Source: Bacteriovoracaceae bacterium (lineage in GTDB: Bacteria > Bdellovibrionota > Bacteriovoracia > Bacteriovoracales > Bacteriovoracaceae). From it: a stretch of 53,406 bases of DNA. A model generated the notes under the pieces. That model saw only the letters and a list, made by a program, of their open reading frames with translations, was not told the origin of the DNA and did not search any database. Below, piece by piece: positions 4,501 to 27,877 of the stretch (position 1 is its first letter; each line of letters opens with the position of its first letter). The stretch spans positions 1 to 53,406 of the forward strand of contig JARXAH010000090.1 of the NCBI GenBank assembly GCA_029865945.1. Reading direction: 5' to 3'. A program made the position numbers and the translations under genes.

Positions 4501-7500
4501 GATCATGACTCCATACATAAAAATTTGGCTTAATCAAAAACTGATTGTGAAATTGAGGCCTCTAGGTGCCGCACAAAAGAAAATTTATCATCACTACATG
4601 TTTATCACCTGGAATTACTTTGAACATTTTGTGACAAAAGACAATCATTGGCTGGCGCCCGATAATTTCCAAGAAGATCCTGATCCTATTATTGCCCACC
4701 GAACATCACCTACTAATATCGGGCTGCAGTTGCTCGCCACCATCTCTGCTTATGATTTTAAATTTATCACAGGGCCCGATCTTATCGATCGTTTAGAAAA
4801 AGTTTTTGACACACTTAAAGAGCTACCAAAACTCAAAGGACATCTTTATAATTGGTACGATACAAAAACATTGACTCCCCTCAATCCCCTCTATATTTCT
4901 ACCGTCGATAGTGGAAATTTCGCAGGACACTTAATTGCTGTTAAACAATCCTGCTTAGAAATTTCTTATGATAGTTCTTATCATAGTGAAGATTCTAGGC
5001 GTTGGATTTCTATTGCTAAGCAATGTGATCAATTAATTCAAGAAATGGATTTTCGCTTTCTCTATCATCCGATAAGAAAACTTTTTTCTATCGGTTTCAA
5101 TATTAGCGAAAATAAATGTGATCTTTCTTTTTATGATCTACTGGCATCCGAATCACGGCTCACAAGTTTTATTGCGATTGCGAAAGGTGATGTTCCTCAA
5201 GAACATTGGTTTCATTTAGGCCGTTCTATGGCACCAGTTTCACATGGCAGGGCCCTTATTGCATGGACGGCCACCATGTTTGAATACTTAATGCCTTTAC
5301 TCGTCATGCGAAGATTTTCACAAACAATCTTAGATGAAACTTACCGATCAGTAGTGGACAAACAAAAAGAATATGGAAAGCAAAATCATGTTCCCTGGGG
5401 AATTTCGGAATCGGGATATAACGCACGAGATCTCAATCTCAATTATCAATACGGCCCCTTTGGAATTCCTGGGCTTGGGTTAAAGCGCGGCCTTAGTCAT
5501 GATTTAGTAATTGCACCTTATGCCACCATGCTCGCTGCTCCCATTGATCCTTGGGGAGCGCTAGAAAATTTAGAAATATTAGAAAAGTTGGGAATGCTTG
5601 GAAAATATGGATTTTATGAAGCGATTGATTATACCAAAGATCGTCTTCCTAAAAACCAAACGAGTGAGATCATAAAATCTTTCATGGCCCATCATCAGGG
5701 TATGAGTATGGTTTCGATCAATAATTTATTGCATCCACAAACTATGCAAAAGAGATTTCACAATGATGCCATGGTTCAGTCCACTGAACTTTTATTGCAA
5801 GAAAGAATTCCAAAAAGTATCAAAAGTGAAATCACAACACCACGTTTAGAAGAAATTCACTTTGAATATCGCCATCCTGTATCCAGTAATCCCAATCAGC
5901 GAATCTATCATGATCTCAATCTCTCCACTCCCAGGACGCAAATTCTATCCAATGGTTACTATATGGCGATGATTACTTCCGCCGGTTCTGGTTACTCGCT
6001 TTGTGGCCCGCTCAGTATGGGACGATGGAGAGAAGACCCTACGAGGGATCACTGGGGCCATTTTTTTTATATTCGTAACCGCAAACAAGGAACTTTTTGG
6101 TCTGCAGGTTTTCAGCCCACAGTGGCCATTCCTGACGAATATGAATGTATTTTTGCAGAAGATAAAGTGGAATTTATTCGGCGTGATGGAAATATTTCCA
6201 CTCACACTGAAATTTTAGTTTCGCCGGAAGATAATGTGGAATTAAGAAGAATTTCGCTCACCAATCACTCCCTTCATGATTGTGAACTGGACGTTACTAG
6301 TTTTATGGAAGTTACGTTGACGCGTCCTAAAGACGACGCTGCTCACCCGGCCTTTAGTAATCTGTTTGTGGAAACGCAGTATGTGGAAAAAGAAAAGGCG
6401 TTACTCGCGACCAGGCGAAAACGTTCCAAGGATGAAACACAAGTTTGGGCGTTCCATGTTTTAGTAGCAGATAGTGAAAATCAAACGATCGGATCCACAC
6501 AGTATGAAACTAACCGCAATCATTTTATTGGCCGAGGTCATAGTCCAAAAAATCCGATTGCCATTTGTGAAGATTGCCCTCTCACAAGTTCAGTCGGCGC
6601 TGTGCTCGATCCTATATTTTCGCTTAGATCATCAGTAAGAATTGCACCTGGACAGACAGCGCGCTTTCTTTATACGACTGGCATGGTGGCCACCAAAGAT
6701 GATGCTTTGCGCTTAATTGACAAGTATCACGACATGCCTATTTTTGCGCGCGAATCTGATATTGCTTGGACAAAAATGCAAGTACAACTTCGTCACTTAA
6801 ATATTTCCATGAATAAATCCCACACCTTTCAAAGACTTGCTGGCCGAGTTATTTTTTCTGATTCCTCCCTTCGTCCTCCTTCACACTTGCTCGCTCTTAA
6901 TACTCGCGCCCAATCGGGACTTTGGGCCTACGGAATTAGTGGAGATCTTCCTATCATCTTAATGATTATTAGTGATGAAAAAGATATGAGTATGGTGCGC
7001 GAACTTTTACACGCCCATGAATATTTACGACTTAAGGGCCTAAGTATTGATCTCGTGATTCTAAACGATCGCCCTGCCAGTTATTTACAATCGCTTCAAG
7101 AAGAATTGCAAAGACAACTTCGGATGAGTGGATCGCAATCCTTGATTGATCTTCCTGGCGGCGTTTACTTGAGACGCTCAGACATTATTCCTGAGGAAGA
7201 TACCATCTTACTTAAATCGGTAGCTCGCATTGTGCTCAATACGACCAAGGGTACTTTAGATGAACAAATGATGCGCCCTGCGAGATTCGAGGAAAGAGAA
7301 CGTTTCAAAAATGTAGCAAAAAGAAAACCAAAAAAATCTCCCGTAAATCCACTTGAGCGACCTAAATTGGAATTTGATAATGGAATAGGTGGCTTTAGCG
7401 ACGATGGGAAGAAGTACACGATTATACTCAGCGAAAATCAATGGACACCCGCCCCTTGGATTAATGTAATCGCCAATGATCAAGATTTTGGGTTTATCAT

Positions 7501-10787: not shown

Positions 10788-11001
10788 AACGTCTCCTTAA
10801 GAATGTAACTACTGACTTTTTAACGGCCACGTTACTTGGTTTACACACTGACTTATGTGAGTTACTTCTAGATCTTGCAAACTTAATGCCAGTAAAAAAT
10901 ACAATTAAAAAAGGAATAAGAGATTTTATTGAACGCGATTGAGAGTATATTTTGAACCTGAACAAATTCATGCTACGAGATCCAACAACAAAGGAAACTC
11001 T

Positions 11002-12471
11002 ATGAACTCAATGGAAAGATCGGGAAATCAAAAATATGTTCTCATCGTGGTTGATGACGATCTCGATATTCAATCCCAAGTAATGTCTTATTTCTCACCT
11101 GATAAATTTGAAGTAATTTGCTTTTCAAGCGCTCAGGATGCCATTGATTCATGTACTGAAAAGAAAAAAGAGTGGGACGTTTTACTTACTAACTTCCATT
11201 TCCCCACGATGACTGGCGTAGATTTCACAATTGAAATACAAAAAATTCTTCCTGATTTACCTATTATCTTACTCTCGCCGCTAGATGCCACAGATATAGC
11301 AGTACTAGCAATTCAAAAAGGTGCTTACGATTTCATTGTAAAACCCATTCACAGTACTCAGCTGCAAATTGCTGTGGAGAGGGCACTGCAACTTAAATTT
11401 TTAAAAGAAGATCTCTTTGAATTAAAATCAAAAGTAAAAATCTCTCCCATTACTTATGGTAAAATCATAGGAAGAAGTCCGCAGTTTATAAAAGTTCTCG
11501 ATCTTGCGCGTCGAGTAGCAACGAGTAATGCCAATGTTTTTATTTCAGGAGAAAGCGGAACCGGTAAAGAAGTATTAGTAAAATTTATCCATGATGAAAG
11601 TTTAGTTAAAAACGGCCCGTTCATTGCCATTAATTGTTCAGCCATCCCAGAGAGCTTACTGGAATCAGAACTTTTTGGTCACGCAAAAGGGGCCTTTTCG
11701 GGCGCCATAGCGCTAAAAATTGGTCTTTTTGAAGAAGCTCAAAACGGAACCTTATTTTTAGATGAAATTGGAGATTTAAGTTTATCATTGCAGGCCAAAC
11801 TTCTTAGGGTGCTACAAGAAAGAATAATTAGAAGAGTTGGTGAAAATCATGTTCGAAAAATTAATTGTCGTATCATTACTGCAACCCACAAAGATTTATT
11901 AGTCGAAATTGCGGAAAAAAGGTTTCGTGAAGATGTATTTTTCAGGCTCAATGTTATACCAATTACCATACCTCCCTTAAGAGAACGCATTGAAGATATT
12001 GTGCCATTGGCCGAAGCTTTCTTAAGAAAGTATGCTATCCAAAATAATTCACTCGCTAAAACATTTTCTAAAGAGGTCTTAAATTATATTTTGCATAATC
12101 CCTGGCGAGGCAATGTCAGAGAGCTAGAAAATGCAGTTGAGAGGGCAGTTATATTAAGTAACGTAGCTCAGATTTCACTAGAAAATTTTTTGCCACAAAA
12201 CTACAGGGAAGTTGAAATAGTTAAACAAGAGTTGCCGAATTCAAATCTAAATTTGAAATTAAATGAAAACGAAGACGAAAATGTATTTCAGATTAAATAC
12301 CTCGATCAGCTGCCTACACTAGATGACGTTATCCAAAAATTTATCGAGTTTGCCGTTTGCAAAAATGGAGGGGCAAAAGATAAAACCGCCAAAGACATAG
12401 GAATTGATCGAAAAACCCTTTATAAACGCTTCAAAAATGATATTTTAAATTTAACTGAATCTCTACATTAA
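11002..12471 (+). CDS. NtrC-family sigma-54 activator with pseudo-receiver domain
   Basis: A 489-aa regulator with three domains. The receiver domain (residues about 11-130) keeps the acidic pair Asp18/Asp19 and Lys114, but the phospho-acceptor is Asn64 (LLTNFHFP) instead of Asp. The AAA+ sigma-54 interaction domain has Walker A GESGTGKE at 183-190, GAFSGA at 230-235 and Walker B LFLDEIGD at 251-258. The C-terminal Fis-type helix-turn-helix is AKDIGIDRKTLYKRFK. GAFSGA replaces the usual GAFTGA sigma-54 contact loop. Start: an upstream in-frame start exists at 10939, but the ATG at 11002 has AAGGA six bases before it and fits the receiver boundary. The gene is convergent with the chemosensory operon (12-bp gap) and divergent from the CsbD cluster. 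With Asn64 it is unlikely to be switched by ordinary Asp phosphorylation. Confidence 0.92.
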   Translation: MNSMERSGNQKYVLIVVDDDLDIQSQVMSYFSPDKFEVICFSSAQDAIDSCTEKKKEWDVLLTNFHFPTMTGVDFTIEIQKILPDLPIILLSPLDATDIAVLAIQKGAYDFIVKPIHSTQLQIAVERALQLKFLKEDLFELKSKVKISPITYGKIIGRSPQFIKVLDLARRVATSNANVFISGESGTGKEVLVKFIHDESLVKNGPFIAINCSAIPESLLESELFGHAKGAFSGAIALKIGLFEEAQNGTLFLDEIGDLSLSLQAKLLRVLQERIIRRVGENHVRKINCRIITATHKDLLVEIAEKRFREDVFFRLNVIPITIPPLRERIEDIVPLAEAFLRKYAIQNNSLAKTFSKEVLNYILHNPWRGNVRELENAVERAVILSNVAQISLENFLPQNYREVEIVKQELPNSNLNLKLNENEDENVFQIKYLDQLPTLDDVIQKFIEFAVCKNGGAKDKTAKDIGIDRKTLYKRFKNDILNLTESLH

Positions 12472-12483
12472 ATACAAAGATTC

Positions 12484-14406
12484 TTAAGAACTGATTTTCA
12501 TATAATATTGTTCTATAATCTTATTTAATTTTTCTTTTAATTGAGAAATGCTCCCCTGTATCTGTACTGCTCCTAAGTCCACTGCCTCCTTAGGCATCCC
12601 ATAGACTACAGAAGAATTTTCATCTTGCGCCATTGTCACTGACTTCTCTGATCTGGCAACTTCTAGAAGTCCTTTTGCTCCGTCTTTTCCCATTCCTGTA
12701 AGAATAATCGATGTTGATGCAATCCCCTCTTTAGCAATCGATGAGAAAAGGTAATCTATCGATGGCCTTATGTTATGAACGGCAGGTGCGGAAACATAAT
12801 GCATAATGATGGAATCTTTTGATCTTTGCAAAGTCAGATGCAGATCTTTTTGTGCAAGATAGAGGGTATTGGGTTTAAGAATTTCGCCCTCTTCATCATT
12901 TGATAAATCAAGTCCAAGGGTCTCAGATAAGTATTTGGCAAAGTAGCTCGTAAAGTAGGGTGCCATATGCTGAACAATTACTATCGGTGGTGTCGGCCTT
13001 CTAATATCTTTAAGTAAATCAAAAATTGCCTCTGGGCCACCGGTGCTTGCCCCAATGGCAATGACTTCACTATAAAAAAACTGAGGGTTGATTTTTTTAA
13101 ATTTATAAAATGAAATATCTTTTTTCATTTGAACATGATTATTCTTGGTTTGTGTTAACTGAGTAACTGTGGAAACGAATAAATCTAAACGCTTGTAAAC
13201 TAAATCTTTAATGAAATATTCTTGTGCTCCTTTTACTAAAAGTCCCATCATGGATTTAATTTCATCCGGAGAAGAAGATGAAGAAATAACAACTGGAATT
13301 TTGTGACCTCTTGTGCGAAATTTATTTAGCCATTCCACTCCATTCTCGCCCGGCATTTCAATATCAAGAACAATTAGGTCAATTTTACCTTGATGAACTT
13401 CCCATTGATGTGTTGCTTCTTCTGCACTAGATGCTTCAATCACTTCAAAATTATTTTTTTGTAAAATGGCCTTTAATGGCATTCTTGCTACGATCACATC
13501 ATCAACCAGTAAAATTCGTTTTCTATTTGCAGTAAATGAAATAGCGGAAGTGCTATCGTTTTCCTTACTGATTTTAGTTGATGTTAATATTTTTTTAAAA
13601 CAATTATTACCAATATTTTGTAAATGACAATTTCCCAATGTGTATTCACGGTAATCTTGAAAAGATTCACTGTGACCTAATATCAATATTCCATTAGTTT
13701 TCAAAGATTTAAGAAAGTAATTTATAATTTTTTTTACTTTTTCTTGATCAAAATAAATCAAAAGATTTCTGCAAGAGATGACATCAAATTGCTTTTGCTC
13801 ACCAAGTATTGAAATATCATTAATTATAAAATGACAGTTATCTTTTATTTTGGCATCGATCGCCAGCAGCGATTTCTCAGAATCGACTACATCATGTAAA
13901 TAAGAATGAAACTTTTTGGGAATCTCATCGTTGATCGCTTTCTCATAAATTCCAATTTGAGCTTTCTCGATGGAGATGGGGTCAATATCTGATCCTAGAA
14001 TGTAAAATGGAATTTCTTTTAGTTCTAATAGAAACCCATAGGAATAAACTTCTTCACCAGTTGAACAACCAGGAACCCAAATCGAAAGTGGTGAATGATG
14101 GTGAAATATATTTTTGGCATCATTTTGATTTAAGAACTCAGACAACGTTTCAAAATGAGGTGCCTCACGAAACCAATGAGTTGTATGAATAGTTATGGCC
14201 GATAAAAATGCCTTGTACTCGTTTTCATTAGTATTAACTATTCTTAAATACTGTGTAAGTGATGAAATTTTTAGCCGTTGCATTTGCTGAGCAACGTTCA
14301 TCCATAATATTTCTTTCCTATAACTCCCCTGCTGATTTGTACCTGTAAGTTTCTCAATTAGATCATAGAGAAAATTGATTTCACTTTCTGTTAAATTCGT
14401 TTTCAT
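12484..14406 (-). CDS. CheR-REC-CheB fusion protein A
   Basis: This 640-aa protein combines receptor methyltransferase and methylesterase. The CheR domain (about residues 5-275) has the SAM-binding motif [10 protein letters not shown] at 113-122, SCRNLLIYF and the ILGHSES segment. A receiver domain (296-410) has Asp302/Asp303, phospho-acceptor Asp348 (VLDIEMPG) and Lys400. The CheB methylesterase/deamidase (about 447-635) has catalytic Ser454 (IGASTGG), His480 (VQHM) and Asp575 (GMGKDGA). All key residues are present. CheR adds and CheB removes methyl groups on MCP glutamates. Start: the ATG at 14406 forms an ATGA overlap with the stop of the HPt gene; the frame extends seven codons further. 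It is the last gene of the chemosensory operon and a paralogue of the fusion at 16737-18767. Confidence 0.93.
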   Translation of the reverse strand: MKTNLTESEINFLYDLIEKLTGTNQQGSYRKEILWMNVAQQMQRLKISSLTQYLRIVNTNENEYKAFLSAITIHTTHWFREAPHFETLSEFLNQNDAKNIFHHHSPLSIWVPGCSTGEEVYSYGFLLELKEIPFYILGSDIDPISIEKAQIGIYEKAINDEIPKKFHSYLHDVVDSEKSLLAIDAKIKDNCHFIINDISILGEQKQFDVISCRNLLIYFDQEKVKKIINYFLKSLKTNGILILGHSESFQDYREYTLGNCHLQNIGNNCFKKILTSTKISKENDSTSAISFTANRKRILLVDDVIVARMPLKAILQKNNFEVIEASSAEEATHQWEVHQGKIDLIVLDIEMPGENGVEWLNKFRTRGHKIPVVISSSSSPDEIKSMMGLLVKGAQEYFIKDLVYKRLDLFVSTVTQLTQTKNNHVQMKKDISFYKFKKINPQFFYSEVIAIGASTGGPEAIFDLLKDIRRPTPPIVIVQHMAPYFTSYFAKYLSETLGLDLSNDEEGEILKPNTLYLAQKDLHLTLQRSKDSIIMHYVSAPAVHNIRPSIDYLFSSIAKEGIASTSIILTGMGKDGAKGLLEVARSEKSVTMAQDENSSVVYGMPKEAVDLGAVQIQGSISQLKEKLNKIIEQYYMKISS

Positions 14407-14777
14407 TTTAAATCCTTGAATTCCCAATTTTTAAGTTCAAGAATTAAAATTCTAATCTGGGCCCATACATCTTGGAACTGAGTAACAACTTCTGACCATG
14501 GTGATGATTGCTTGCATAACTTATCAAGACTGCTTAACTTTTGTGCTAAAGAGTCGCATCCAAAAGTGAGAACTGCACCTTTTAATGCATGACTTGTTTT
14601 ACCAAGAACCATCATATCTTTGTTCTTATATGATTTTTCCCAAGGAGTGAGCAAGTCAGGCAAAGTTTCAGCAAATGACCTCAGGGCCTCATCTACAAGA
14701 ATTTCATCGCCACTAAATATTTCAAGCAACTTATCTTTACTAAAAAATTTAGGTTTTGTGTTTAAATCATCTGACAT
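14403..14777 (-). CDS. Stand-alone HPt phosphotransfer protein
   Basis: A 124-aa helical protein with the histidine phosphotransfer motif SHALKGA, placing the phospho-His at residue 63. HPt proteins shuttle phosphate between receivers. It overlaps the hybrid kinase gene upstream by 11 bases and the CheR-REC-CheB gene downstream through an ATGA junction, so the three are translationally coupled. The context suggests that it accepts phosphate from the kinase receiver (Asp568) and passes it to a receiver in one of the fusion proteins or to the lone receiver at 26108-26581. That routing is inference. No other domain is present and no signal peptide is seen. Confidence 0.88.
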   Translation of the reverse strand: MSDDLNTKPKFFSKDKLLEIFSGDEILVDEALRSFAETLPDLLTPWEKSYKNKDMMVLGKTSHALKGAVLTFGCDSLAQKLSSLDKLCKQSSPWSEVVTQFQDVWAQIRILILELKNWEFKDLK

Positions 14778-16740
14778 GAGATTTCAACTGGTTCATTTTT
14801 TTTGGATTTTCTGAAAATTCTAAATTTTCAGGATTTTCGATATCATATTTAGAAATGAGGGATTCAAGTTCCTTCATTTTTATGGGTTTTGGTAGAATTT
14901 CAGATACACCGCTGGCCATAAAATTTTGAACGTCCTCAGGATTAAATTCCTCCGCGGAGCATAGAATAATTTTTGATTTAACGCCAAGATCCAGTTTTTT
15001 TATAAATTCTATACCTGAAAGTTCTGGCATATTAAAATCAACAAATATCAATCCATAATTATTACTATCATCATTTTTTTGTAAGTGACTTAGTGCTAAA
15101 AGAGGAGATGAAAAAATATCAACTTCAAAATTCAATTTTTTTAAAAAATTTTTTAAAACAATTTGATTTATTTCGACATCTTCAACCACTATTGCTCGTC
15201 TCTTTAGTTTACTAGTGGCCATTGATGTCAAAAATATTCCCTCAACTGGATTTTCTAGTTTTACATTGATAGGCATGATTATTTCAAATCTACTACCTTT
15301 ATTAACCTCACTGGAAACAAGGAGTCTTCCCTTCATTAAATGAACTAAATCTTGACAGATACACAGTCCAAGTCCAGTTCCCAATTCATTTAGCTTGTGA
15401 TTATTTAACCTTCCTTGGTAGTAAGGGGTAAATAAACTAGAAACTGTCTCTTGATTCATTCCAATACCTGTATCTTCGACTATAATTTTTAAGCTATTTT
15501 CCTTACTTAAATCTTTCTCTAGTTCTATAGACATGGAAATTCCACCATGAGTAGTAAACTTCAAAGCATTGGATAGTAAGTTTAGAAGCACTTGTTTTAA
15601 TTTCACTTCATCAAATTTAAATTCTCTTGGAACATCCTTACTAATATTTAGTTTCCAACTAATGTTCTTCTTATTACAAAGAACTTCAAATAAATTAGAA
15701 ACTTCCTCAATAATTTTATGAAAATTGTTTATTTTTTCTTGCAATTTAAATTTCCCTGATTTAAGTTTTGCAAAATCAAGAATTTCATTAACGATACTTA
15801 AGAGTGAATTAGCGGAAGATAATATCATATCATAATAATCAGATACCTTTTTATCTTGATTCGAAAAATTCATTTTTAATACTTCTACAATACCAATAAT
15901 TCCATTTAACGGCGTTCTGAGTTCATGTCCTATTTTAGCAGTAAACTGTTCTTTTGCTTTTAAGGAGTGCTGTGCAATCAAAAAGTAATAAAATAATAAA
16001 GTCATGACTGAATAAATAAAAATTGAAGTAAACATTCCTAAATATAGATATAAATTTCGAATGGAGATGTATTCACTAGCAAAATAATCTACACCTAGCA
16101 CACCAATTTGTTTTTGGGCCTTATCATACAAGGGAACAAAAGCACTAACCCAAGTACCCCATTTATCAGTGTAGGGTTCCTCTGTAAATGACGGTATCCC
16201 TTGATACGCCTGATCAAGCTCTGGCAGCTTTTTTTCATAGACTTCTCCGATCAAAGTTCTAGACTCACTCTCACCTTCATAAATTCCGTTTTTATCATAG
16301 TCCGTCTCAGAATCAACGAGAAAACGATTATTTCCTTCGTCATCCAATTTCATTGTATAGATATCATTAATGAAATTATTATTTGAAAGCCATATTTTTT
16401 GGATTTCTATTAGTTCCAAATATTTTTTGTCATCATTTTTGGTTTTAAAATTTATGGATTCGTGTCCTAACATTTGAAAGGTTGCAGAAAAAGTAGGCGC
16501 ATAACCTAAAAGTTTTGCTTTTTCGTTTTTTTTTATAAGAGTCGTGATCTGAACTAATATGAATGATGAAACCAAAGAAAAACCAACAGTAAACAAAACG
16601 GATTGCCAAAATTCTTTACGATGATCTGTATATAAGTTGGTTCGTTTGGCAAAAAATAGAAAGACAATGAAGATGAACGCAAAATAAATTACATATCCTT
16701 GGGCCTCACTTAAAATTATCGATGTGGCCCAATGATTCAA
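14767..16740 (-). CDS. Membrane hybrid sensor histidine kinase
   Basis: The 657-aa protein has an N-terminal membrane segment (about residues 15-31), a second (47-67), a Cache-like extracytoplasmic sensor (70-230) containing TWVSAFVPLYD and a D-x-D-x-N-G loop at 147-152, and a third membrane segment (230-255). HisKA follows with His272 (GHELRTPLNG), then a HATPase domain with NLLSNALKF, DTGIGM and GTGLGL. A C-terminal receiver has Glu520/Asp521, Asp568 (VDFNMPE) and Lys618. It would autophosphorylate at His272 and pass phosphate to Asp568, then probably to the adjacent HPt. Start: TTG at 16740 forms a TTGA overlap with the upstream stop and has AAGGAAG in front; no ATG is better placed. A hybrid kinase between two adaptation-enzyme genes is unusual. 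Confidence 0.92.
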   Translation of the reverse strand: MNHWATSIILSEAQGYVIYFAFIFIVFLFFAKRTNLYTDHRKEFWQSVLFTVGFSLVSSFILVQITTLIKKNEKAKLLGYAPTFSATFQMLGHESINFKTKNDDKKYLELIEIQKIWLSNNNFINDIYTMKLDDEGNNRFLVDSETDYDKNGIYEGESESRTLIGEVYEKKLPELDQAYQGIPSFTEEPYTDKWGTWVSAFVPLYDKAQKQIGVLGVDYFASEYISIRNLYLYLGMFTSIFIYSVMTLLFYYFLIAQHSLKAKEQFTAKIGHELRTPLNGIIGIVEVLKMNFSNQDKKVSDYYDMILSSANSLLSIVNEILDFAKLKSGKFKLQEKINNFHKIIEEVSNLFEVLCNKKNISWKLNISKDVPREFKFDEVKLKQVLLNLLSNALKFTTHGGISMSIELEKDLSKENSLKIIVEDTGIGMNQETVSSLFTPYYQGRLNNHKLNELGTGLGLCICQDLVHLMKGRLLVSSEVNKGSRFEIIMPINVKLENPVEGIFLTSMATSKLKRRAIVVEDVEINQIVLKNFLKKLNFEVDIFSSPLLALSHLQKNDDSNNYGLIFVDFNMPELSGIEFIKKLDLGVKSKIILCSAEEFNPEDVQNFMASGVSEILPKPIKMKELESLISKYDIENPENLEFSENPKKMNQLKSHVR

Positions 16741-18767
16741 GAAGCTTCCTTTTGAATTTTAGGTGCAACAAATGTTAACATTTTATTTCTAAGTTCATTG
16801 ATTCCGCCTTGCAAACAAACGGCGCCTAACTCAACGGCGCGTTTGGGCATTCCATAAACAATAGAACTCATTTCATTTTGCGCCATTGTCAGGGATCGAC
16901 TGGTTTTAAAAAGTTCTAACATACCATTGGCACCATCTTCTCCCATCCCAGTCATCAATAATGCTAGTGTACGTTTTGAAACATTTTTTGCCACAGAAGA
17001 AAAAAGAATATCAATGCTTGGACGATGGCCATTTAATTTAGAGCGATTGAGTTCAGTGCTAGTTTCTAAAATTAATTTACCTTTTATTTCTTTGACAAGA
17101 ATATGATAGTCTCCAAGAGAAAAATAAATATGGCCTCGTTTTAATTCTTCATTTTTGGTTAAATCTTCTTTAAGATTTGTTCCTCCTAATTTCAAACTCG
17201 ATTGCTTAGCTAAATGCGTTGCGAACGCAGAAAGAAATTCAGTCGTAATATGTTGAACTACAATGATGGGAGGACAATTAAATGGCATATTCACTAATAA
17301 CTTGGCCAAGCAATCTGGTCCTCCCGTAGAAGAACCAATCACTATTAATTCAGGTGAAAAATCCTTGAGGCCAAATGGGGCCGATTTCACCATGACAAAA
17401 GAATTCTCATCATTAATCTTTTTTTCACAGACAGAAGCTTTAGACGTAGCCAAAGTCAACTTCGATTCTTCTTTCCGCTTTAGTTCATAATTTTGAGCGA
17501 GTGAAAAAAAAAGTTCCTTAATTTCTTCACTATGCGTATGCAATTTACTTTTCACTAAATAATCATGCGCTCCTGAAGCTCCTCCTCCGAATATTTTATT
17601 GGCCTCTTCTGGCGTAGAATCGCTAACTAAGACGACCGGTATTTTTAAATTCTTGGCCCTTTGCTGTTTTAACCATTCTATTCCGTTCATTCCGGGCAAA
17701 TTTATATCTAAGGTAATTAATTGGAATTGATCTTGCTCAATTATTTCCGATGCTTCTTCTGCGGATTCACATTCTCGAACATTGAAATTCATTGAGGAGA
17801 GAAGAGATTGCATTTTTTTTCGTATGACAAGTGAATCGTCAATGACGAGACATTTAAGTTTCGATACATTATTTGTTATTGTATTTTTTAAAATTTTTCT
17901 ATTGAGTGTTATTGATTCAACATTTATTTTTTTTTGAAAACAGCCTTTTCCTAAATTATCGAAACGATGTTGAGAACTCAATCCCAGAACATTTTCACTG
18001 TGGCCAAGAACCAATAGACCACCTGGTTTTAATCTGTGCGCAAGTGATTCAATAATGGCCTGTGCGTCGGTTGATTTGAAATAGATGAGTACATTTCGGC
18101 AGAAAACGATATCAAATGGCCCTGATTCATCATTATCTCGCAAGGCCATTAAATCCTGGGAATAAAACTGACATTTCCCTCTTATTTCCGATTCAAGTGT
18201 AAAATAATTTTGTGTTTTGCCCGAACCAACTCGCAAAAAAGGATGATATATTTTTTCAAATAAATCCATATCGGTACGCGGGTAAATGCCTTTTACGGCC
18301 ATTCGAACTGATGCTGGATCGATATCTGAACCAAAATACTTTATTTTCCAATTTTTTAGATTTTGCTTAATTTTTTGTTCCAAAAATAAAGCAACCGAAT
18401 AAACTTCCTCCCCTGTTGAACAGGCCGAAGACCAAATTTTAATGTCATGACCATTAAAGGATTTATCTTTTTTAGTACTTCGTTCTTGCTCCAAAAGGTA
18501 ATTATAAATAAATTCAAAGTGGGGTGATTCCCTAAACCATGAGGTCGTGTGAATAGTGAGTGAGCTTAATAATTCACAATATTCATTATTATCTGTTACT
18601 ACGTAAGCAAAATACTGCTGCAAATTACTAATATTAAGCTTCTGCATTCTTCTCTGTACATTACTGATGAGAACATCTTTTCGGCAAGCTCCTTCTTGGG
18701 AGGAACCAGTTAATTTTTCTGCTAGCGTAAAAATAAATTCAATTTCATCTTTTGTAAAATTTAGCAT
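16737..18767 (-). CDS. CheR-REC-CheB fusion protein B
   Basis: A 676-aa paralogue of fusion protein A with the same order. The CheR domain (about 5-282) has [10 protein letters not shown] at 115-124 and FCRNVLIYF. The receiver (304-420) has Asp310/Asp311 and phospho-acceptor Asp354 (TLDINLPG). The CheB esterase (about 472-670) has Ser480 (IGSSTGG), His506 (VQHI) and Asp611 (GMGEDGA). The linker between receiver and esterase is longer and more charged than in A. Start: the ATG at 18767 overlaps the last codons of the upstream MCP by seven bases. It is probably co-translated with that receptor and with the kinase downstream. No separate cheR or cheB gene occurs in this operon, so A and B likely do all adaptation chemistry here. 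Confidence 0.93.
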
Positions 18768-20860
18768 ACTTTTTTAAAACTCTCATCATTTGCATCAATA
18801 TTAGTTAATTTTTCATCACGAGATTGGGTATCGTTTATTGCAGATACGGAACTCATTACTGAACTTTTTTTAGCTAGGATTTCTCTAGCTAGAGACTCTA
18901 AACTATCTTCATTAACACTATGATCATTTACTTGTTTTTTTTGCAATGAAGGTGCAAGTTTTTGAATATTATTTGAATTCACTATTTTTTTAACTTCTGC
19001 AGTGCTGGACGAAGAAATATTACCTGTTAAATAATACGTAAAACTGTCAATCAAAGATAAGAATTCATTTGAATCATTTTTTAATTCATCAGTCATACGA
19101 AAACATTTTGTTGCGGCCATACTATTTTGTTGTGCCGCTAAGTCCATCTGTTTCATCGCAGAATTTGATTGTTGTATACCAATTTCTTGCTGTTGTGTGG
19201 CCTCTTGAATTGATTGAATCTGCTGATTGATGTCTTTTATTCGAGATGCAATATCAGCAAACGATGATTGGGCCAATTGATTGACTTGTGCTCCATCATC
19301 AATTCTTGAAACAATGGTATCGATTGTTTCTTTTACTCTAATTTGACAATCTTTTATGAGACTCTCAATTTCTAGAGCAGCTTCACCACTCATTTCAGCA
19401 AGATTACCGACTTCCTCAGCGACAACCGCAAATCCTCTTCCTTGTTGTCCTGCCCTCGCCGCTTCGATGGAAGCATTAAAAGATAAAAGTTGGCTTTTGA
19501 ATACAATGTCATTTATGAGATTTGTCTTTGCACTAATTTCTTCGATGGCCGTTGCAATACTTTGAATTTGATCACTGGCCCTTTGAATGGATTTCATTGT
19601 ATGTTCCATTCGAAGCATTACCTTAATTCCTTCGTCTGTTTTTTCTTGTGCGACGAGAGATGTCTCTTGAGTCAATTTAATATTTTGACCAGTTTGAGCA
19701 ATCATGGAACTCATTTCACTTAAGGCGCTCACTGTCTCTTGGATGGCCGCAGCTTGTTCCTGTCCTGAAGCCGCTAATTTTTGACTAGTCATTCTTAATT
19801 GATTTTCTGAATCAGAATTTTTACTTCTCACCAATGCAAACTTAGAAGTTAAATCGATGAGAAATTTCGAGACCCTTGTATTAACGAAAATTAAAAAAAG
19901 CAAAGAAATAACACTAATGACAAAAATACTAATTTTAAAAGCGAAGGAATCATTATTAATGGGGCCCAATACATCTTCTTTTGGAATCCTCAATGATATT
20001 GACCACTTTAATGAATCAATAAATTTATCGCCTTTTAATATACTATTAATGATAAAATCATTATTTTCACTATTTGAATCTCTATTTTTTTCTTTTTTAA
20101 AAAGAGAGTTTACGACATTTTTCTTTGGACTCCCATCAAGCATTTGTTTTACGAAGATTTCTTTATTTTCACTTAGTACTAATATTTCTCCCAATTTATG
20201 TCCTTTCGAAATCAACTGCTGAGCTCCATTAAAAATTTCATGTTCGATCCATTGTAAATTGGCCCGATTTGTTATTACGCCAATTACTGTGCCTTCAGAA
20301 TTTTTTACTAGCGCGCTAAAGGAATTACTAGCGCGTTGATCTCCATACATGGCAGAAGTGATATCATCCATACTTGGATCTTCTACTAAAGTGCCAACCA
20401 TTCCCTTTGTTGCGTCATCAGTGGTGATCCCTTTCATAGATTTTTTAAACCAATTCTCGTTGACAAAATTTTTACTTTTCAAGACATCAATATTTATTTT
20501 TTTCCCTTTACTATCTACGGAATTAGATGCAATGAGCTTACCATTAGTATCAACAAATAAAATGGCATCATAAATTCCGTATAAGGTAACATAGGAATTC
20601 AAAGTTTTTTCCATTCCCTCTTTATTAGAGGATTGAAAAACTTCATTTAAGCCAAACGCTTGCACATCTCCATAACGCTCGTAGAATTGAGCACTAATGG
20701 CATCAACCAGATTTTCTATATGAAGTTGAAAGGAATCAGTTGTTGATTTTTTTAGCTTCTTTTCAAATCCAGAAAATTGATGCCAATTGACTAATGAGAG
20801 TACAGACAAGCAGATAAAGCTTGCGAAAATCAGTCGAGATTTAAGTGGAAATGATTTCAT
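18761..20860 (-). CDS. Methyl-accepting chemotaxis protein with large Cache-type sensor
   Basis: A 699-aa transmembrane receptor. TM1 is at about residues 9-27, a large periplasmic double-Cache-like domain spans 30-305 ([13 protein letters not shown] at 102-114 is a typical Cache strand pattern), and TM2 is at 308-328. The cytoplasmic signalling domain has the tip [20 protein letters not shown] near 450-469, followed by [19 protein letters not shown]. No recognisable HAMP domain separates TM2 from the coiled coil. The last 90 residues form a Ser/Lys-rich tail without the NWETF-type tether. It would cluster with CheA and CheW and be modified by the CheR/CheB fusions. The ATG at 20860 has AAGG upstream, and the gene starts 17 bp after cheW ends. 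Confidence 0.93.
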
Positions 20861-20877
20861 AATTTACCTTCTCATTC

Positions 20878-21363
20878 TTATGCTATTTTTAATTTTTCAT
20901 CGCAAAGAGATTTAAATAAATCGACAATCGTAATGAGTGAATCTTTATTTTTGGCCACTCCCAATAAATATTCGTGTCCGATTTTTGACTGAACTGGGGG
21001 ATGGTGATCCACATCTTCTTGTTTTAAGTGAACAACAGAATCGACATAATCTACAATGGCCGCGATCGCCCCTTTATCAGTATCACAAAGAAGCATGGCC
21101 GTTTTTTTATCGAACTTTTCTTGGCACCCGAATTTTGATCGCAAATCAACTACTCCGACTATCGCCCCTCTTACATTAATGACACCCACAAAATAATTCA
21201 CCATATTGGGCATGGGCTTTGGCTGTTGGTATTCAAGAACTTCTCGAACTGTGAGTAGAGGTGCGCCATACTGAACGCCGCCAACATAAAAGACTAAAAA
21301 TTTATATTGATTAATATCTCGAATTTTCTTTTCACTCACTTCCATGCTACTTAAATTATTCAT
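20878..21363 (-). CDS. cheW: Chemotaxis adaptor CheW
   Basis: A 161-aa scaffold coupling receptors to CheA. It is a single CheW domain: the FLVFYVGGVQYGAPLLTVRE region at about residues 22-41, then the conserved GVINVRGAIVGVVDLR block (60-75) that contacts receptor tips and CheA P5, and the C-terminal LITIVDLFKSL strand-helix. It has a short N-terminal extension of about 20 residues. The ATG at 21363 forms an ATGA overlap with the stop of cheA, so the two are translationally coupled. This is the only CheW in the window and probably serves both MCPs and, perhaps, the PAS receptor-like proteins. Confidence 0.95.
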   Translation of the reverse strand: MNNLSSMEVSEKKIRDINQYKFLVFYVGGVQYGAPLLTVREVLEYQQPKPMPNMVNYFVGVINVRGAIVGVVDLRSKFGCQEKFDKKTAMLLCDTDKGAIAAIVDYVDSVVHLKQEDVDHHPPVQSKIGHEYLLGVAKNKDSLITIVDLFKSLCDEKLKIA

Positions 21364-23153
21364 GCTGATAACTCCTTATCTTCGAATTTAGCGACGTAAT
21401 TTTTAAGAATGGTATGCATATCAATAATGAGCCCTGGCTCTCCATTTCCTAAAATTGTTCCGCCCATGATTCCTACAAGGCCACTAATATTTTGGTTGAG
21501 TGGGCGAACAACAATTTGCTGTTGTCCCAGAACTGCGTCCACAAGAAAAGCAACTTTACCTTGCTGGCGCTTGGCTATTAAAAAAATTCCACTTTCATTA
21601 TTCTTTTCATTATTCTTAGGGTGATTGGATTCAGAAGAATGCTTCAATATTGAAGCAAGTTTTTGGATTGGTATAACTTGGTCTCTAAGATAGATCATAC
21701 TTTTATTATTATCAAATTCGCAATCCGCAAGATTAATCACTTCTTCAATCGAATCGACAGGAACTACGTAAAGTTGATCCGTCAATTTGACTATGAGGCC
21801 ATCAATAATACTGACACTTGTTGGAAGGGAAATATTAAAATTAGATCCACTATTTTCCACACTTTCAATATGAATTTTTCCTCTCAATTCTTCAATGGCC
21901 TTAGATACGACGTCCATCCCTACACCTCGACCAGAAACATCAGTAATTTTATCAGCGGTGGAAAATCCAGGAAGTAATATCAATTTTAAAACCTGCTCAT
22001 CTGACATATTATTGGCATGAGAAATTAATTTTTTTTCGACAGCTTTCGAAATTATTTTTGATCTATTTAATCCTTTCCCATCATCGCTTACTGTTATCAC
22101 GACACCAGAAGTATCTTGCTTAGCAGAAATTTTTATTGTCCCGTTGGCATCTTTTCCTTTCTGTAATCTTTCCTCATTTTTTTCGATCCCATGATCAATT
22201 GCATTTCTTACAATGTGAGTAAGAGGATCTACCATTTTGTCTAAAACTGTTTTATCTAGTTCTACGTCGCTACCTTCTAAAATGACTTTAACTGTTTTAT
22301 TTAAATTTTGTGAGAGATCTAAAATATTTCGCTCTAACCTTTGAAACAAGGACTGAATAGGCTGCATGCGCAGACCTAAAGCACGGTCATATAGTTCTTT
22401 TGTTAACTTTTGCCCAACTTGTAGAGAATTTAAGAAAATTTTATTTTTAATTTTAAGATCACTGTTTAAATGCCACATAATGGATTGATGAATAGATAAC
22501 TCACCTATACAAGCGGCCAGTTCATCTAGTTTATTTGCTGGAACTCTAATACTTTCTTGATTTGCTGTTTTTGTATTTTTTAGTTTTACAGGTTCGTCAG
22601 TTTTTACACTAGTAGCTACTATATCGCTAGAAATTGGTGGTTCACTTATTTTTTTTATCTCCACGACCTTAGAAGATTCGGTGGATTCAGGAGTTTCAGA
22701 AAATAAATCTTGTGAAGGAGGAGCACTCATATCTGAATCTAGCACCAACTCAGGTTGTTTATCTTCATTTTCAGTTTTCATAGCACTTTGATATTCAGCA
22801 AGGAAAGCACTGGTATCATCGGTATATTCAGTTCCTTCCTTGGTCGCAGTAATCCATTCCATTAAAATTTTTTGTGCCTTTAATAGTAAGGAAATGCATT
22901 TAATGGAAGTAGGTACTTTTTCATCTCTTAAAAGTGTGATTCCATCTTCCACTTTGTGTACAAAATTACCAAACTCAACTAGACCAATAGCGCGAGAGCC
23001 ACCTTTTAAATTATGAGCAATTCGAAATATTTCTTGAAGGAGCTCAATTTTAACTTTTTTAGATAATTCTAAGGCGACGGATTCCCACCTCAGAAGTAAA
23101 TCAGTGGCCTCATCACAAAAAATAACGCGCATTTCATCTTCAAATTCACCCAT
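21360..23153 (-). CDS. cheA: Chemotaxis histidine kinase CheA
   Basis: A 597-aa class II histidine kinase. The HPt/P1 domain (about residues 1-110) has the phospho-His at 47 (AHNLKGGSRA). A long Ser/Glu/Pro-rich linker (125-200) follows, with no recognisable P2 (CheY/CheB docking) domain. The P3 dimerisation helices are at about 203-270. The P4 ATPase has the N-box HIVRNAIDHGIE (313-324), the VSDDGKG loop and SGRGVGMDVV. The P5 CheW-like domain covers about 446-590. It is complete, without an attached receiver. Absence of P2 suggests slower or less selective transfer to its receivers, here the lone REC (26108-26581) and the receivers of the two CheR-REC-CheB fusions. An AAGGAT ribosome binding site precedes the ATG. 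Confidence 0.95.
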   Translation of the reverse strand: MGEFEDEMRVIFCDEATDLLLRWESVALELSKKVKIELLQEIFRIAHNLKGGSRAIGLVEFGNFVHKVEDGITLLRDEKVPTSIKCISLLLKAQKILMEWITATKEGTEYTDDTSAFLAEYQSAMKTENEDKQPELVLDSDMSAPPSQDLFSETPESTESSKVVEIKKISEPPISSDIVATSVKTDEPVKLKNTKTANQESIRVPANKLDELAACIGELSIHQSIMWHLNSDLKIKNKIFLNSLQVGQKLTKELYDRALGLRMQPIQSLFQRLERNILDLSQNLNKTVKVILEGSDVELDKTVLDKMVDPLTHIVRNAIDHGIEKNEERLQKGKDANGTIKISAKQDTSGVVITVSDDGKGLNRSKIISKAVEKKLISHANNMSDEQVLKLILLPGFSTADKITDVSGRGVGMDVVSKAIEELRGKIHIESVENSGSNFNISLPTSVSIIDGLIVKLTDQLYVVPVDSIEEVINLADCEFDNNKSMIYLRDQVIPIQKLASILKHSSESNHPKNNEKNNESGIFLIAKRQQGKVAFLVDAVLGQQQIVVRPLNQNISGLVGIMGGTILGNGEPGLIIDMHTILKNYVAKFEDKELSA

Positions 23154-23189: not shown

Positions 23190-24590
23190 TCAGCTCGCTT
23201 GTTCTTCCATTTTGTTACTTATTTCTATAGCTGAATCTTTAAAATGAATCATGGATTCATTAATTAAATAATTTATATTTCTTATCACCGGAAGCATTTC
23301 AGAGACCAATTGATAGGTTGTTTCTACGAAACTTTCGATCCCTTCCATGGATTCACGGTATTCATCCACAAATTTTTCCATTTCATTTATGAAAGGACCA
23401 AAAACCGAAATAAGAGAATCGGTACGAGAACCTTCAATTTTTCCACCAGTTTTAATTAAGTCAATTCTAGTTAAATGCTGTATTAACGATTTGGATAAAC
23501 GATTTGTGTTATCAACTAATTTCATAAATGAAGCTTGCTTTTCTTCAGTCTTAGTAAAAAATTTTAAAGTGGCATCAAAAAGATAATTATTTTTACTAAA
23601 AAGTTCCCCCATGCTGCTGTAAGTTTCATTTTTTACTGAGGAATGAAGCATTTCTACTTGAATAAAAGCATAATAAATATCAGTGTAGTTGGTTTGCAGT
23701 TCCATTTTCATGGAATCGTAGGATTTTTTAAATTCTAAAAATGTTTTTAAAAACTTATGGGAAGTTGCTTGAAAAGTATTGGCAACCACGTATAGTGCTG
23801 ACCCTTCTCGTGAAAGCTTATTGGCCGTAATACACATGTTGACTGAAAGAACTTCGATCCGGTCACTAATTCTCTCAAAGCTATCAACATTTGATTTACT
23901 TAAAAATTCTTCAAATTTGCTAGCTTCCGTATTCTTTATAATTTGCTTAATTGACCTAAATGAGCGCTCTAAGTTCATAATGATTAGATTTTTATTTTGC
24001 TCAAAGATTTCATTATTACTTTTTGGTCTTGAAACTGACGGAGACTGTCCTCGTATTTTTATTCTTAAATTTAATTCATCTTTTAGTACAGCGACCATAA
24101 ATTGATCATAACTATGAATGCCCAAGGACTTTAATTCTTGCATCAAAAATTCACTAGCTTTTTCTACACCTTTATCTTTCTCTACTTCAAGAAGCTTAAC
24201 ATAGATCTGTTCTGCAATAGATTTCAATTTTGATTGAGGTTTAATTCTAATGGAAAAATAGCCACCTTCCTCAATAAACACACAGGCAAGTACCCAGTAG
24301 AATTTTCCATTTTTAGATTGATTTTTTACGTAAGCTACAGTCACTTGACGATTTTTGATTCGATTCCATAATAATTTGAATACACATTTAGGCATATCTG
24401 GATGCCTTATAATATTGTGAGGTGTACCGATCAGCTCATCTAATGAAAATTCAGAAATTCGTGTAAAGACACTATTTCCCTCTAGAATAATTCCTTTTAA
24501 ATCAGTTCGAGAGACAAAAATTTCATCATCAAGAAACGCGGCCTCTTCCTGTTGAAAAATTGGATCACTATTAATTTTTTTTGGTACCAT
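23190..24590 (-). CDS. PAS (Aer-like) protein with divergent MCP-like signalling helix, copy 1
   Basis: A 466-aa soluble protein with no membrane segment. Residues about 22-120 form a PAS domain of the Aer type, with GTPHNIIRHPDMPK (55-68), VKNQSKNGKFYWV (88-100) and the final strand YFSIRIKPQSK. The rest is almost entirely helical. At 251-270 it contains NMCITANKLSREGSALYVVA. This matches the MCP hairpin tip spacing N-x2-I-x-A-x6-G-x4-VVA exactly, although most of the canonical EAARAGE residues are changed. The position in the operon, just upstream of cheA and after an MCP, supports a receptor-like or CheA/CheW-regulating role. It resembles the gene at 26645-27877 in both domains. Redox or flavin binding is possible by analogy with Aer, but is inference. 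An AGAGGT ribosome binding site precedes the ATG. Confidence 0.82.
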   Translation of the reverse strand: MVPKKINSDPIFQQEEAAFLDDEIFVSRTDLKGIILEGNSVFTRISEFSLDELIGTPHNIIRHPDMPKCVFKLLWNRIKNRQVTVAYVKNQSKNGKFYWVLACVFIEEGGYFSIRIKPQSKLKSIAEQIYVKLLEVEKDKGVEKASEFLMQELKSLGIHSYDQFMVAVLKDELNLRIKIRGQSPSVSRPKSNNEIFEQNKNLIIMNLERSFRSIKQIIKNTEASKFEEFLSKSNVDSFERISDRIEVLSVNMCITANKLSREGSALYVVANTFQATSHKFLKTFLEFKKSYDSMKMELQTNYTDIYYAFIQVEMLHSSVKNETYSSMGELFSKNNYLFDATLKFFTKTEEKQASFMKLVDNTNRLSKSLIQHLTRIDLIKTGGKIEGSRTDSLISVFGPFINEMEKFVDEYRESMEGIESFVETTYQLVSEMLPVIRNINYLINESMIHFKDSAIEISNKMEEQAS

Positions 24591-24598
24591 ATTAACCT

Positions 24599-26095
24599 CT
24601 AGGCCACTTTAGTGTTATTCTTATGGCCATTTAATAACAAGCTAATTGATCCTGTTGCTTCTTTAATTTTGTCGTTGGTATCAATTAAACGATGAATATT
24701 TTTTAATGAAGTCTGGGCCGATTGACTGTTATTCTTACTTGCCGAATCAATTTGTTCTATAGCAGCATTCGATTGTAAAATACTTTCAGTCTCTTCATCG
24801 CATTTAAGTGAAAGTTCGGAAAAATCATTCTCCACATCAACGACCTTATTAAACATCTCTTTAATTTGATCAGATACATGCGAGGTAATATTTCGGGAGT
24901 CATCAATTTTCTTAACGACAGAACCACCCATTGAGGAAACTTTTTCGTTACTTTCTTTTAATAATTGCTGTATGGAATTGGCCGCATTTCCTGAAGTAAG
25001 TGCGAGCTTACTAATTTCTTCTGCAACCACTGAAAAACCGCGCCCGTGCTCACCGGCCCTTGCGGCCTCGATAGATGCATTAAAGGAAAGTAACTGAGTT
25101 TTAAAAACGATGTCATTGATAATACTAGTTTTAGTATCTATTGTTTTAATCGTACCAATTAATTCTTCAAAATCTTCTAAGATTTTTTGCATCCCATTCA
25201 TACATTCTATCAGTTCATCAATTTTTAATAGTCCTGCTTGTCCACTCGTCACAATCACTTTTGTTTTCTTAAGAGCTCCTTGAATTTGTGTACTTGTCTC
25301 TTCAATGAGTTCTTTCGTTTTATGACTAAGTTTGGAACAAGTGGCCACAGCTTGATTTTGTTCAACACTTGCGGCCGCAATATTTTGAGCACTCAAATGC
25401 GATTGCTGACAAACTTCTTCAGATGATTTTACAGCATCATTTAATTTGGCCGAGACTCGGGTAAATAATTTATTTGTTGATGTACTAAGAACAAGTGAAA
25501 CAATGATGGCTATTAAAGAAATGGCCAATAGCGACCAAAAAATTAGTTGTAAATTCCTTTCCCCGCTATCTGAAGATTCAAAAGCTTCTTTCTCAATGGC
25601 GGCCCCCATTTTTTCCATTTGCTCTTCTACGTCTTCAAAAGTTTTTTTGAATTCAACTTTAAGCTCTTCTTTGCTTTTTGCATTATCCATTTCTGCTAAC
25701 AATGACTTCGAGGACTTAATATATCCTTCAAGAGAAGGCTTTACTTTTTCAATTAATAATTTGGTGTTATCACTCAAAGTTAATGACTCTAACTCAGCAA
25801 TATACTTCTTAAAGTCGTTACTTTTTTCTTCTAATTCAATTTTCAATTCATTGACACGATCTGCATTTTTAATTTCGTTTTGATACAAGGCCTCCATGAC
25901 AACCCCTCGCATCCCATCATGCATCATATCTGCGAGTGTTTGATTTTTTAGGGCCGGTAATTTATTTTTACTAACTTCGCTTAGATACTTCATCAATGTT
26001 TCTGAGTTCTTATAAGAAAAAGTTCCAAACGAAATAATAAGTAGTACCATCAAAAGTCCAAAAAAGTAAAAACGTTGTCTGAGAGTAAAATTCAT
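24599..26095 (-). CDS. Methyl-accepting chemotaxis protein with four-helix-bundle-type sensor
   Basis: A 498-aa receptor. TM1 is at about residues 9-27, a helical periplasmic domain spans 28-182 (size and composition of a 4HB_MCP ligand-binding domain, very rich in Lys/Glu), and TM2 is at 183-204. The cytoplasmic coiled coil carries the hairpin tip [20 protein letters not shown] (327-346), then [19 protein letters not shown]. As in the larger MCP of this operon, no HAMP domain is evident after TM2, and the C-terminus lacks a CheR-tether pentapeptide. The two MCPs share the same unusual tip (F-K-x-Q-L-L-S-F-N-A-S), so they probably form mixed arrays with the same CheA/CheW. AAGGA precedes the ATG; the gene starts 12 bp after the lone receiver gene. 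Confidence 0.93.
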
Positions 26096-26107: not shown

Positions 26108-26581
26108 CTATGATGCTTTTTTTTCTAAACTAATTAATAATCGATTTAACTTATCATCAATTTGCTCCATTTCCTTTTCAGGAAATCCGTAGCTTTTTTT
26201 TAGTTTTTCATAGAATAAACATTGCTTTGCAGTATAAATGAGAATTTCAGAAATGTAGGGCTTGTCGACAATACTATAGGCCATATAATTAAGAGTAGAG
26301 AGGGCCTTTTTATCACTCGCATTACCGGTAAGTAAAATGAAAGGGGTAAAATCTTTCGTCTCTCTAAGTATTTTAATAAAATCTAAGCCGTTTTTTTCAG
26401 GCATTTGAAAATCACTAACAATTAAATCTATTTTTTCTTTTTTCAAAATTTCGAGTGCTTGGTCTACAGAATTTGTTTTTGTCACTGTTTGAAAATGATT
26501 TTTTAATTCCAAAAATATCAAATCTAACAAATCATCGTTATCATCTGTAACCAGAATATGGAAATTAAAAATATTATTCAC
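26108..26581 (-). CDS. Single-domain response regulator (CheY-like) with helical tail
   Basis: A 157-aa protein. Residues about 7-125 form a receiver domain with the acidic pair Asp13/Asp14, phospho-acceptor Asp57 (IVSDFQMPEKNG), a TG switch region (ILLTGN) and the conserved Lys of VDKPY. The last 30 residues are a charged helix without a DNA-binding motif. It is the only free receiver in the operon and therefore the best candidate for the CheA output, analogous to CheY, although it could also be a phosphate sink. Start: GTG at 26581 with AGGAA just upstream; no better in-frame ATG is available. It follows a 63-bp gap that contains a perfect 28-bp palindrome. Confidence 0.9.
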   Translation of the reverse strand: MNNIFNFHILVTDDNDDLLDLIFLELKNHFQTVTKTNSVDQALEILKKEKIDLIVSDFQMPEKNGLDFIKILRETKDFTPFILLTGNASDKKALSTLNYMAYSIVDKPYISEILIYTAKQCLFYEKLKKSYGFPEKEMEQIDDKLNRLLISLEKKAS

Positions 26582-26644: not shown

Positions 26645-27877
26645 TTAATCAAGAATTAAATTGCAACTTCCTTTTTTCTGAGTTAGATGCTCGTGAATCT
26701 CTACAACTCTCTTGCGAATAATTTCTGCAACTCCCGAGGAATCTTTAATTGAGGAATCTAAGTATTGTTTAAATTTGAAAAGATCTGTGACTAAGTGGTC
26801 TAATTGTTCGCGGTTGCGGTTCAATCTTGCTACTTCTATTTTTCCCGTTAATCGCACGATATCAAGACCCGTGGCCACCATTCGCAATTGTTCACAAGTT
26901 GAAATAAATTGGTCAAACTCTATTTTAATCTTACATAAAGTATCTAAGGAGATGTTTATGCCATCTAAAGAAACTTGCTCTAGTATTTTCATTTCACTTT
27001 CTACATTTAGTATTCCATCAGTTATTTTTTCATTTTTAAAAAAATTGATAACTTCACTTTCAAGAACTGCTGCTGCCAAAACATATTGGCATTCTGAGAC
27101 CGATTTTTGAACTAACTGACATGTCTCTTCAAATCGCTTAAACTCCGTTTGTATTTCATTAATCAACACCGTATACCGACTTGCCACAACAGCAAGAGGT
27201 GCCCCTTCTTCATCTAATTTATCGGCCTGAATTGCTAAGTTAAGGGGTAATAAAATACTACCAATAAAATTTTTTTCTAATTCTTGAGAATTCTTAAGTA
27301 AATCGTCTGATTTACTCAAGAGTTCATTGAGTCTCACAAGAATAGGAATTTCTGGACGTGATAATTTTTTTTGCCTATTTTTTATTTCGGACAAAAGAGC
27401 TGTAGTCATAAATGTTTTATAATCAGGAAATCCTAATGAATGAAGAACTTTCAGCAATTCTTGACATGACTGGGCCGGCGCTAATTTTTGATTTTTTTCT
27501 ATTGCCAAAAGTTTTTGATACTCACCCTTGATAACTTCTAGAATTTCACTTCCTGGTTTAATTCGAATGGATAAATATCCTTGTTTAATGGGAATGGCCA
27601 AGGCAAAAACCCAATAATAGCATCCGTCTTTGGATTGGTTTTTAACAAATGCCCCCACAGGTTCACCTGCTTTAAGCATTTCCCATAACAAATAAAAAAC
27701 GGCCTTAGGCATATCTTGGTGCCTAACCACATTATGGGGGCGATCAATAAGTTCATTCCAATCATAACCACTGATCCGTTTAAAAACCGAATTGCCAGAT
27801 AAGATGACTCCTCTCTTATCTGTACGAGAAAAAAAAATTTCATCAAACCCAAATAGCGTTTCATTTTTGATATTCAT
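26645..27877 (-). CDS. PAS (Aer-like) protein with divergent MCP-like signalling helix, copy 2
   Basis: A 410-aa soluble protein and the first gene of the chemosensory operon. The PAS domain at about residues 12-112 has RPHNVVRHQDMPKAVF (46-61), FVKNQSKDGCYYWVF (78-91) and YLSIRIKPGSE, closely matching the protein at 23190-24590. The remainder is helical. Residues 213-232 read NLAIQADKLDEEGAPLAVVA and keep the MCP tip spacing N-x2-I-x-A-x6-G-x4-VVA, with Q and D in place of conserved E and A. A second motif, RLTGKIEVARLNRN, lies near 345-358. No membrane segment, HAMP or methylation consensus is apparent. The role (cytoplasmic redox receptor or array modulator) is inference. The 78 bp upstream of its ATG should hold the operon promoter, but I could not define it. 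Confidence 0.82.
   Translation of the reverse strand: MNIKNETLFGFDEIFFSRTDKRGVILSGNSVFKRISGYDWNELIDRPHNVVRHQDMPKAVFYLLWEMLKAGEPVGAFVKNQSKDGCYYWVFALAIPIKQGYLSIRIKPGSEILEVIKGEYQKLLAIEKNQKLAPAQSCQELLKVLHSLGFPDYKTFMTTALLSEIKNRQKKLSRPEIPILVRLNELLSKSDDLLKNSQELEKNFIGSILLPLNLAIQADKLDEEGAPLAVVASRYTVLINEIQTEFKRFEETCQLVQKSVSECQYVLAAAVLESEVINFFKNEKITDGILNVESEMKILEQVSLDGINISLDTLCKIKIEFDQFISTCEQLRMVATGLDIVRLTGKIEVARLNRNREQLDHLVTDLFKFKQYLDSSIKDSSGVAEIIRKRVVEIHEHLTQKKGSCNLILD

Follow-up and report, generated by a model that had tools for sequence, protein, structure and literature searches.

In canonical CheB, the receiver domain controls only CheB itself, and in the described CheB-CheR fusions (cheBR, K13924) the esterase comes first, often followed by PAS or kinase parts. 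Exact adaptation in chemotaxis rests on the balance between the methyltransferase CheR and the methylesterase CheB. In E. coli, the receptor-bound CheR/CheB ratio sets the adapted state and cheR-cheB are translationally coupled; modelled output noise falls when the antagonists are coupled, which is a benefit to robustness (PMC2716512). The cheR-cheB pair is a conserved gene block (PMC2829493), and phosphorylation of the receiver opens CheB and exposes its tail-binding site (PMC8609364). Fusions of the cheBR kind have been counted in Geobacter (PMC8396549).

Two CheR-REC-CheB proteins in one chemosensory operon

The window analysed here is a stretch of 53,406 bp from a Bacteriovoracaceae genome. 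Two uninterrupted ORFs on its reverse strand each encode CheR, receiver (REC) and CheB domains, in that order: R1 (16737..18767, 676 aa; identified by Pfam, residues and the family table) and R2 (12484..14406, 640 aa from its ATG; Pfam and residues), which were proteins B and A of the first-pass annotation. All Pfam matches were far over the cut-off (R1: CheR 74-269, Response_reg 307-407 and CheB_methylest 475-655; R2, read as 12484-14427: CheR 82-259, Response_reg 305-413 and CheB 456-634); for CheR_N, R1 gave only a sub-threshold match and R2 none. The order methyltransferase-receiver-methylesterase on a single chain, claimed in the first-pass annotation, is therefore borne out for both proteins, and the residues it named are all exact: D354, S480, H506 and D611 in R1, and D348, S454, H480 and D575 in R2, numbered from ATG 14406. 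The listed TTG at 14427 would extend R2 by 7 residues, to 647 aa, but the ATG is the likelier start, given its 4-bp overlap with the upstream Hpt gene and a preceding AAGGA.

R1 and R2 are 39% identical. Both contain the SAM-binding domain, catalytic Arg, acidic pair and RN..Y motif of CheR, as well as the phospho-Asp receiver joined to a Ser-His-Asp esterase of CheB, and the REC-linker-CheB part aligns with canonical CheB 1a2o end to end in a single stretch. Neither has the esterase N-terminal to the methyltransferase, as defines the cheBR class. An AlphaFold model of R1, whose alignment consisted of R2 only, had a pLDDT of 35 and was not used.

The operon starts with a PAS-domain protein (26645..27877), followed by a stand-alone receiver protein (26108..26581, Pfam), the receptor MCP2 (24599..26095; Pfam and motif scan), which has a 4HB sensor and lacks both the tail described below and an exact methylation motif, and another PAS-domain protein that is a recurring partner in fusion operons (23190..24590; Pfam and locus comparison). 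Then come CheA, with Hpt, dimerisation, HATPase and CheW domains (21360..23153, Pfam), CheW (20878..21363, Pfam), the receptor MCP1 (18761..20860), R1, a hybrid histidine kinase (14767..16740; HisKA-HATPase-REC, with a homolog at L068 8860-10764), a 124-aa Hpt phosphotransfer protein with H63 in HALKGA (14403..14777, Pfam) and finally R2, all on the reverse strand. MCP1 carries a canonical methylation motif at 370-379 and ends in the tail NDESFKKVC, and the N-terminal region of the kinase includes membrane-spanning stretches, as judged by eye. From MCP1 through R2 each gene overlaps its neighbour by 4-11 bp (MCP1-R1, 7 bp; R1-kinase, 4 bp; kinase-Hpt, 11 bp; Hpt-R2, 4 bp), which suggests translational coupling from MCP1 onward.

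No CheY-like output gene adjoins the core genes, only the receiver protein at 26108-26581 being present. Scans for promoters and terminators found sites no more numerous than in shuffles, and an Rfam scan gave no match. Convergent with the operon, and ending 12 bp from R2, is a gene for an NtrC-like protein (10939-12471), a possible output regulator in which the receiver was confirmed by scan and the AAA and DNA-binding parts are only apparent. The window also contains a 2751-aa ORF (1523-9778) that by eye resembles cyclic beta-glucan synthase.

The genome as a whole encodes six receptors and has five flagellin-like genes. Beyond this operon it carries two more chemosensory clusters, one with a CheR-REC-X protein and an extended REC-CheB, and the other with separate CheR and CheB. 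R1 and R2 are thus not replacements for the cell's sole adaptation enzymes.

Distribution and descent of the fusion

A survey of 369 genomes from the host's phylum yielded 40 CheR-REC-CheB proteins, carried by 34 genomes in 10 family groups, and one additional fusion was found in G065. In most cases the fusion gene closes the core part of a CheA-CheW-MCP-fusion operon. Chance and an assembly artefact are excluded, since 33 further genomes encode proteins of this architecture. Outside the phylum, no fused CheR-REC-CheB was detected in 238 sampled genomes (20 + 30 + 111 + 77), a small sample of bacteria. Three long matches from outside the phylum were rejected as fusions, since an in-frame stop divides each into separate genes (inspected in L148 and L149; the third was judged from its reported stop codon). 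No fused protein was the top hit in a plasmid collection in which many records are unannotated, and a peptide-pattern scan of genome contigs, made with poor patterns, picked up nothing but a receiver from a Melainabacteria contig.

Among the 40 fusions, the CheB triad is intact in all, the catalytic Arg of CheR in 38 and the acceptor Asp of the receiver in 37; acceptor substitutions include Asp to Cys in the R2 of G269 and Asp to Glu in G260. The R2 of G200 has lost CheR residues and so contains a dead CheR. The CheR-REC linker varies from 27 to 81 residues. In G018, genus g24 and G274 the receiver is absent and CheR is joined directly to CheB (loci L110, L119, L134-L137 and L140). The tree requires at least three events of receiver loss, and a single clade of receiver-less fusions was rejected (p 6e-5).

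Several other arrangements of these domains were observed. A 768-aa REC-CheR-REC-CheB protein with an extra N-terminal receiver is encoded at L069 7557-9863, and a 1062-aa CheR-REC-(unassigned)-REC-CheB protein, apparently a fusion of CheR-REC-X and Y-REC-CheB genes, at L120 7294-10482. A 550-aa CheD-REC-CheB fusion (L121 7672-9324) adjoins a separate cheR. At L148, L149 and L060, cheR and REC-cheB are in-frame neighbours with a single stop between them, one mutation away from fusion.

The main clade of fusions, which includes R1 (and R2 in larger trees), had 100/100 support in both the CheR tree and the REC-CheB tree, and its approximately 30 proteins retain the fusion over ten family groups. 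Separate CheRs contain the motif T-N-x-T-x-[FY]-[FY]-R, in which His replaces Asn in nearly all fusions and in the CheR-REC-X proteins. The three fusions that keep Asn (G338, G073 and G039) may represent a second origin. A single origin of all CheR-REC-CheB proteins to the exclusion of CheR-REC-X was rejected by the CheR tree (p 0.001) and was not rejected on the REC-CheB tree (p 0.25); a single origin with CheR-REC-X included was not rejected.

CheR-REC-X proteins were found once in this genome (L064 7816-9576, contig C81) and in 15 other genomes, usually adjoining an active, N-terminally extended REC-CheB. Profile comparison of the X part with the N-terminal half of CheB gave a probability of 90 (E 1.6e-6; controls <1%), and by eye X lacks the esterase motifs. 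X is a probable pseudo-esterase beside an active REC-CheB. The N-terminal part (Y) of the partner CheB was considered as a CheD, an identity that was rejected (hhalign 1.4%).

Paralogous copies and receptor tails

The eight proteins of four two-copy loci, together with the single-copy relative G168, form a clade of nine rows with 100/99 support, within which the downstream (R2) copies group together (92/91). AU tests rejected same-genome copies as sisters for G030, G269 and G200 (p 0.02-0.04), and did not reject this relation for the window's own pair (p 0.15). The duplication that gave rise to R1 and R2 is probably old.

The order R1-hybrid kinase-Hpt-R2 is shared by the window, G030 and G200, which belong to three families (loci window, L066 and L068). 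The Hpt proteins of these loci have the common motif H-A-L-[KR]-G-A with the conserved Hpt histidine, that of G200 with weak Pfam support (E 0.02). The elements of a possible multistep phosphorelay, namely a hybrid kinase, an Hpt His and a conserved gene order, are all present. In G269 the kinase and the Hpt are absent between the copies and R2 has lost its acceptor Asp, a single case of co-loss that fits a relay into R2. Catalytic decay is confined to one copy, R2 (CheR in G200, receiver in G269). The proposal of the first-pass annotation that the two copies divide their labour gains support from their ancient paralogy, the kept gene order and this R2-only decay.

Receptors adjoining the enzymes have acidic-aromatic C-terminal tails, ADDxSFKK-like in the window's class and DD[PS]RFE[DE][VIF] in the CheR-REC-X class. 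Such tails were observed at the C-terminus of MCP1, in the L064 MCP (5354-7786), and at L066, L074, L101, L107 and others. They occur in 30 of 36 adjacent receptors versus 4 of 28 others (shuffled tails, 3/36), with a p of 3e-8 that is overstated, as the count was post hoc, the receptors are related and the motif was defined on the sequences counted. The receptors of G065 and g24, retrieved after the motif was defined, have no tail. An association between tail loss and receiver loss fitted two lineages and was rejected, given that G274 keeps the tail without a receiver. The pentapeptide xZxxZ (Z = F/W/Y; defined in PMC7390727) was found at the extreme C-terminus of no receptor in the 16 fusion loci scanned. 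The acidic-aromatic tails are a candidate docking motif, and may dock the adaptation enzymes.

Proposed function and relation to known systems

The best overall explanation, with a probability of about 0.58, is that R1 and R2 are 1:1 bifunctional adaptation enzymes whose receiver mainly gates CheB, with divided inputs and docking to the receptor tail. Each would carry methyl addition (CheR) and removal (CheB) to the same chemoreceptor in a fixed 1:1 ratio, and the fusion would be the end-point of an adjacent, co-translated cheR-cheB pair. The CheR half is expected to be constitutive, and the phosphorylated receiver, which is built as in ordinary CheB, would gate mainly the CheB half, a role carried over from E. 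coli/Salmonella. R1, coupled to MCP1, CheA and CheW, would be the CheA-fed adaptation enzyme. R2 would probably be fed by the kinase through its REC and the Hpt protein to the R2 receiver, as suggested by the gene order in three loci and by one co-loss; with such a relay, a second stimulus could reset methylation on those same receptors. The tail of MCP1 may dock both enzymes. The full arrangement, with R1 driven by CheA, R2 driven by an independent hybrid-kinase/Hpt relay and both recruited by a non-pentapeptide tail, is a tentative proposal that we consider rather doubtful as a whole.

The first-pass annotation had proposed that one phospho-acceptor governs both opposing reactions. In the form of a reciprocal switch, phosphorylation of the receiver would turn CheB on and CheR off in the same molecule. 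Such a reciprocal switch would agree with the position of the receiver between both enzymes in 40/40 fusions, with its acceptor Asp kept in 37, and with the fully intact copies of the window. However, the receiver was deleted in three lineages in which CheR and CheB are still fused, the acceptor was lost in three further proteins (3/40), and linkers of 27-81 residues do not suggest a conserved CheR-REC interface. Given the receiver deletions and acceptor mutations, shared control by phosphorylation is not what keeps the fusion in place; the claim is not supported as stated, and the switch seems unlikely. What stays together is the enzyme pair.

Another reading makes the fusion a near-neutral accident: cheR and cheB, lying side by side in one frame, would have lost the stop between them without functional gain. 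The adjacency of these genes is the norm (PMC2829493), and in-frame neighbours one stop apart exist in other phyla (L148 and L149) as well as in the host's own (L060, located at the same place as L083), but the retention of the fusion by one clade of ~30 proteins (100/100) over ten family groups, its persistence after receiver deletion and the fact that later duplicates remain fused make an accident improbable. Slightly less credible still is that the receivers act mainly as phosphate sinks or competing outputs for CheA: this would leave unexplained the CheB triads kept in 40/40 fusions and the dispensability of the receiver, even though three phospho-acceptors (R1, R2 and the hybrid kinase) are present in one operon and no CheY-like output gene lies beside the core genes. 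The natural variants (fused, with the receiver deleted three times, or with single domains dead) are a test set for coupling versus receiver control. If the Hpt relay does feed R2, two signalling systems would converge on receptor methylation, a kind of input that is not known to have been described, and a second sensory pathway would write directly into receptor methylation memory.

A search of the open-access literature found no description of the CheR-REC-CheB order, and no NCBIfam model reaches its cut-off across the whole chain. The suggestion that this is a class with no known description concerns a real and recurrent architecture, which within the open-access scope appears undescribed.

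Compared with the separate CheR and CheB of E. coli/Salmonella (PF01739 and PF01339), the fusions share all three domains, the catalytic residues and the layout REC-linker-CheB, and their domain order follows the gene order cheR then cheB. They differ in forming one chain, in having IHxTxWFRE where separate CheRs have TNxTxFFR, and in the lack of an NWETF-type pentapeptide in their receptors. CheB-CheR fusions (KEGG K13924), of which G016 encodes an example of 1023 aa, also have both enzymes on one chain, but in the opposite order, whereas here the methyltransferase comes first and is separated from the esterase by the receiver. CheR-TPR fusions such as FrzF (PMC3447774) likewise extend CheR with a C-terminal regulatory part, which is a TPR in that case and a receiver-esterase here. 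In translationally coupled cheR_cheB (PMC2716512) the ratio of the antagonists is locked, as it is here by covalent fusion.
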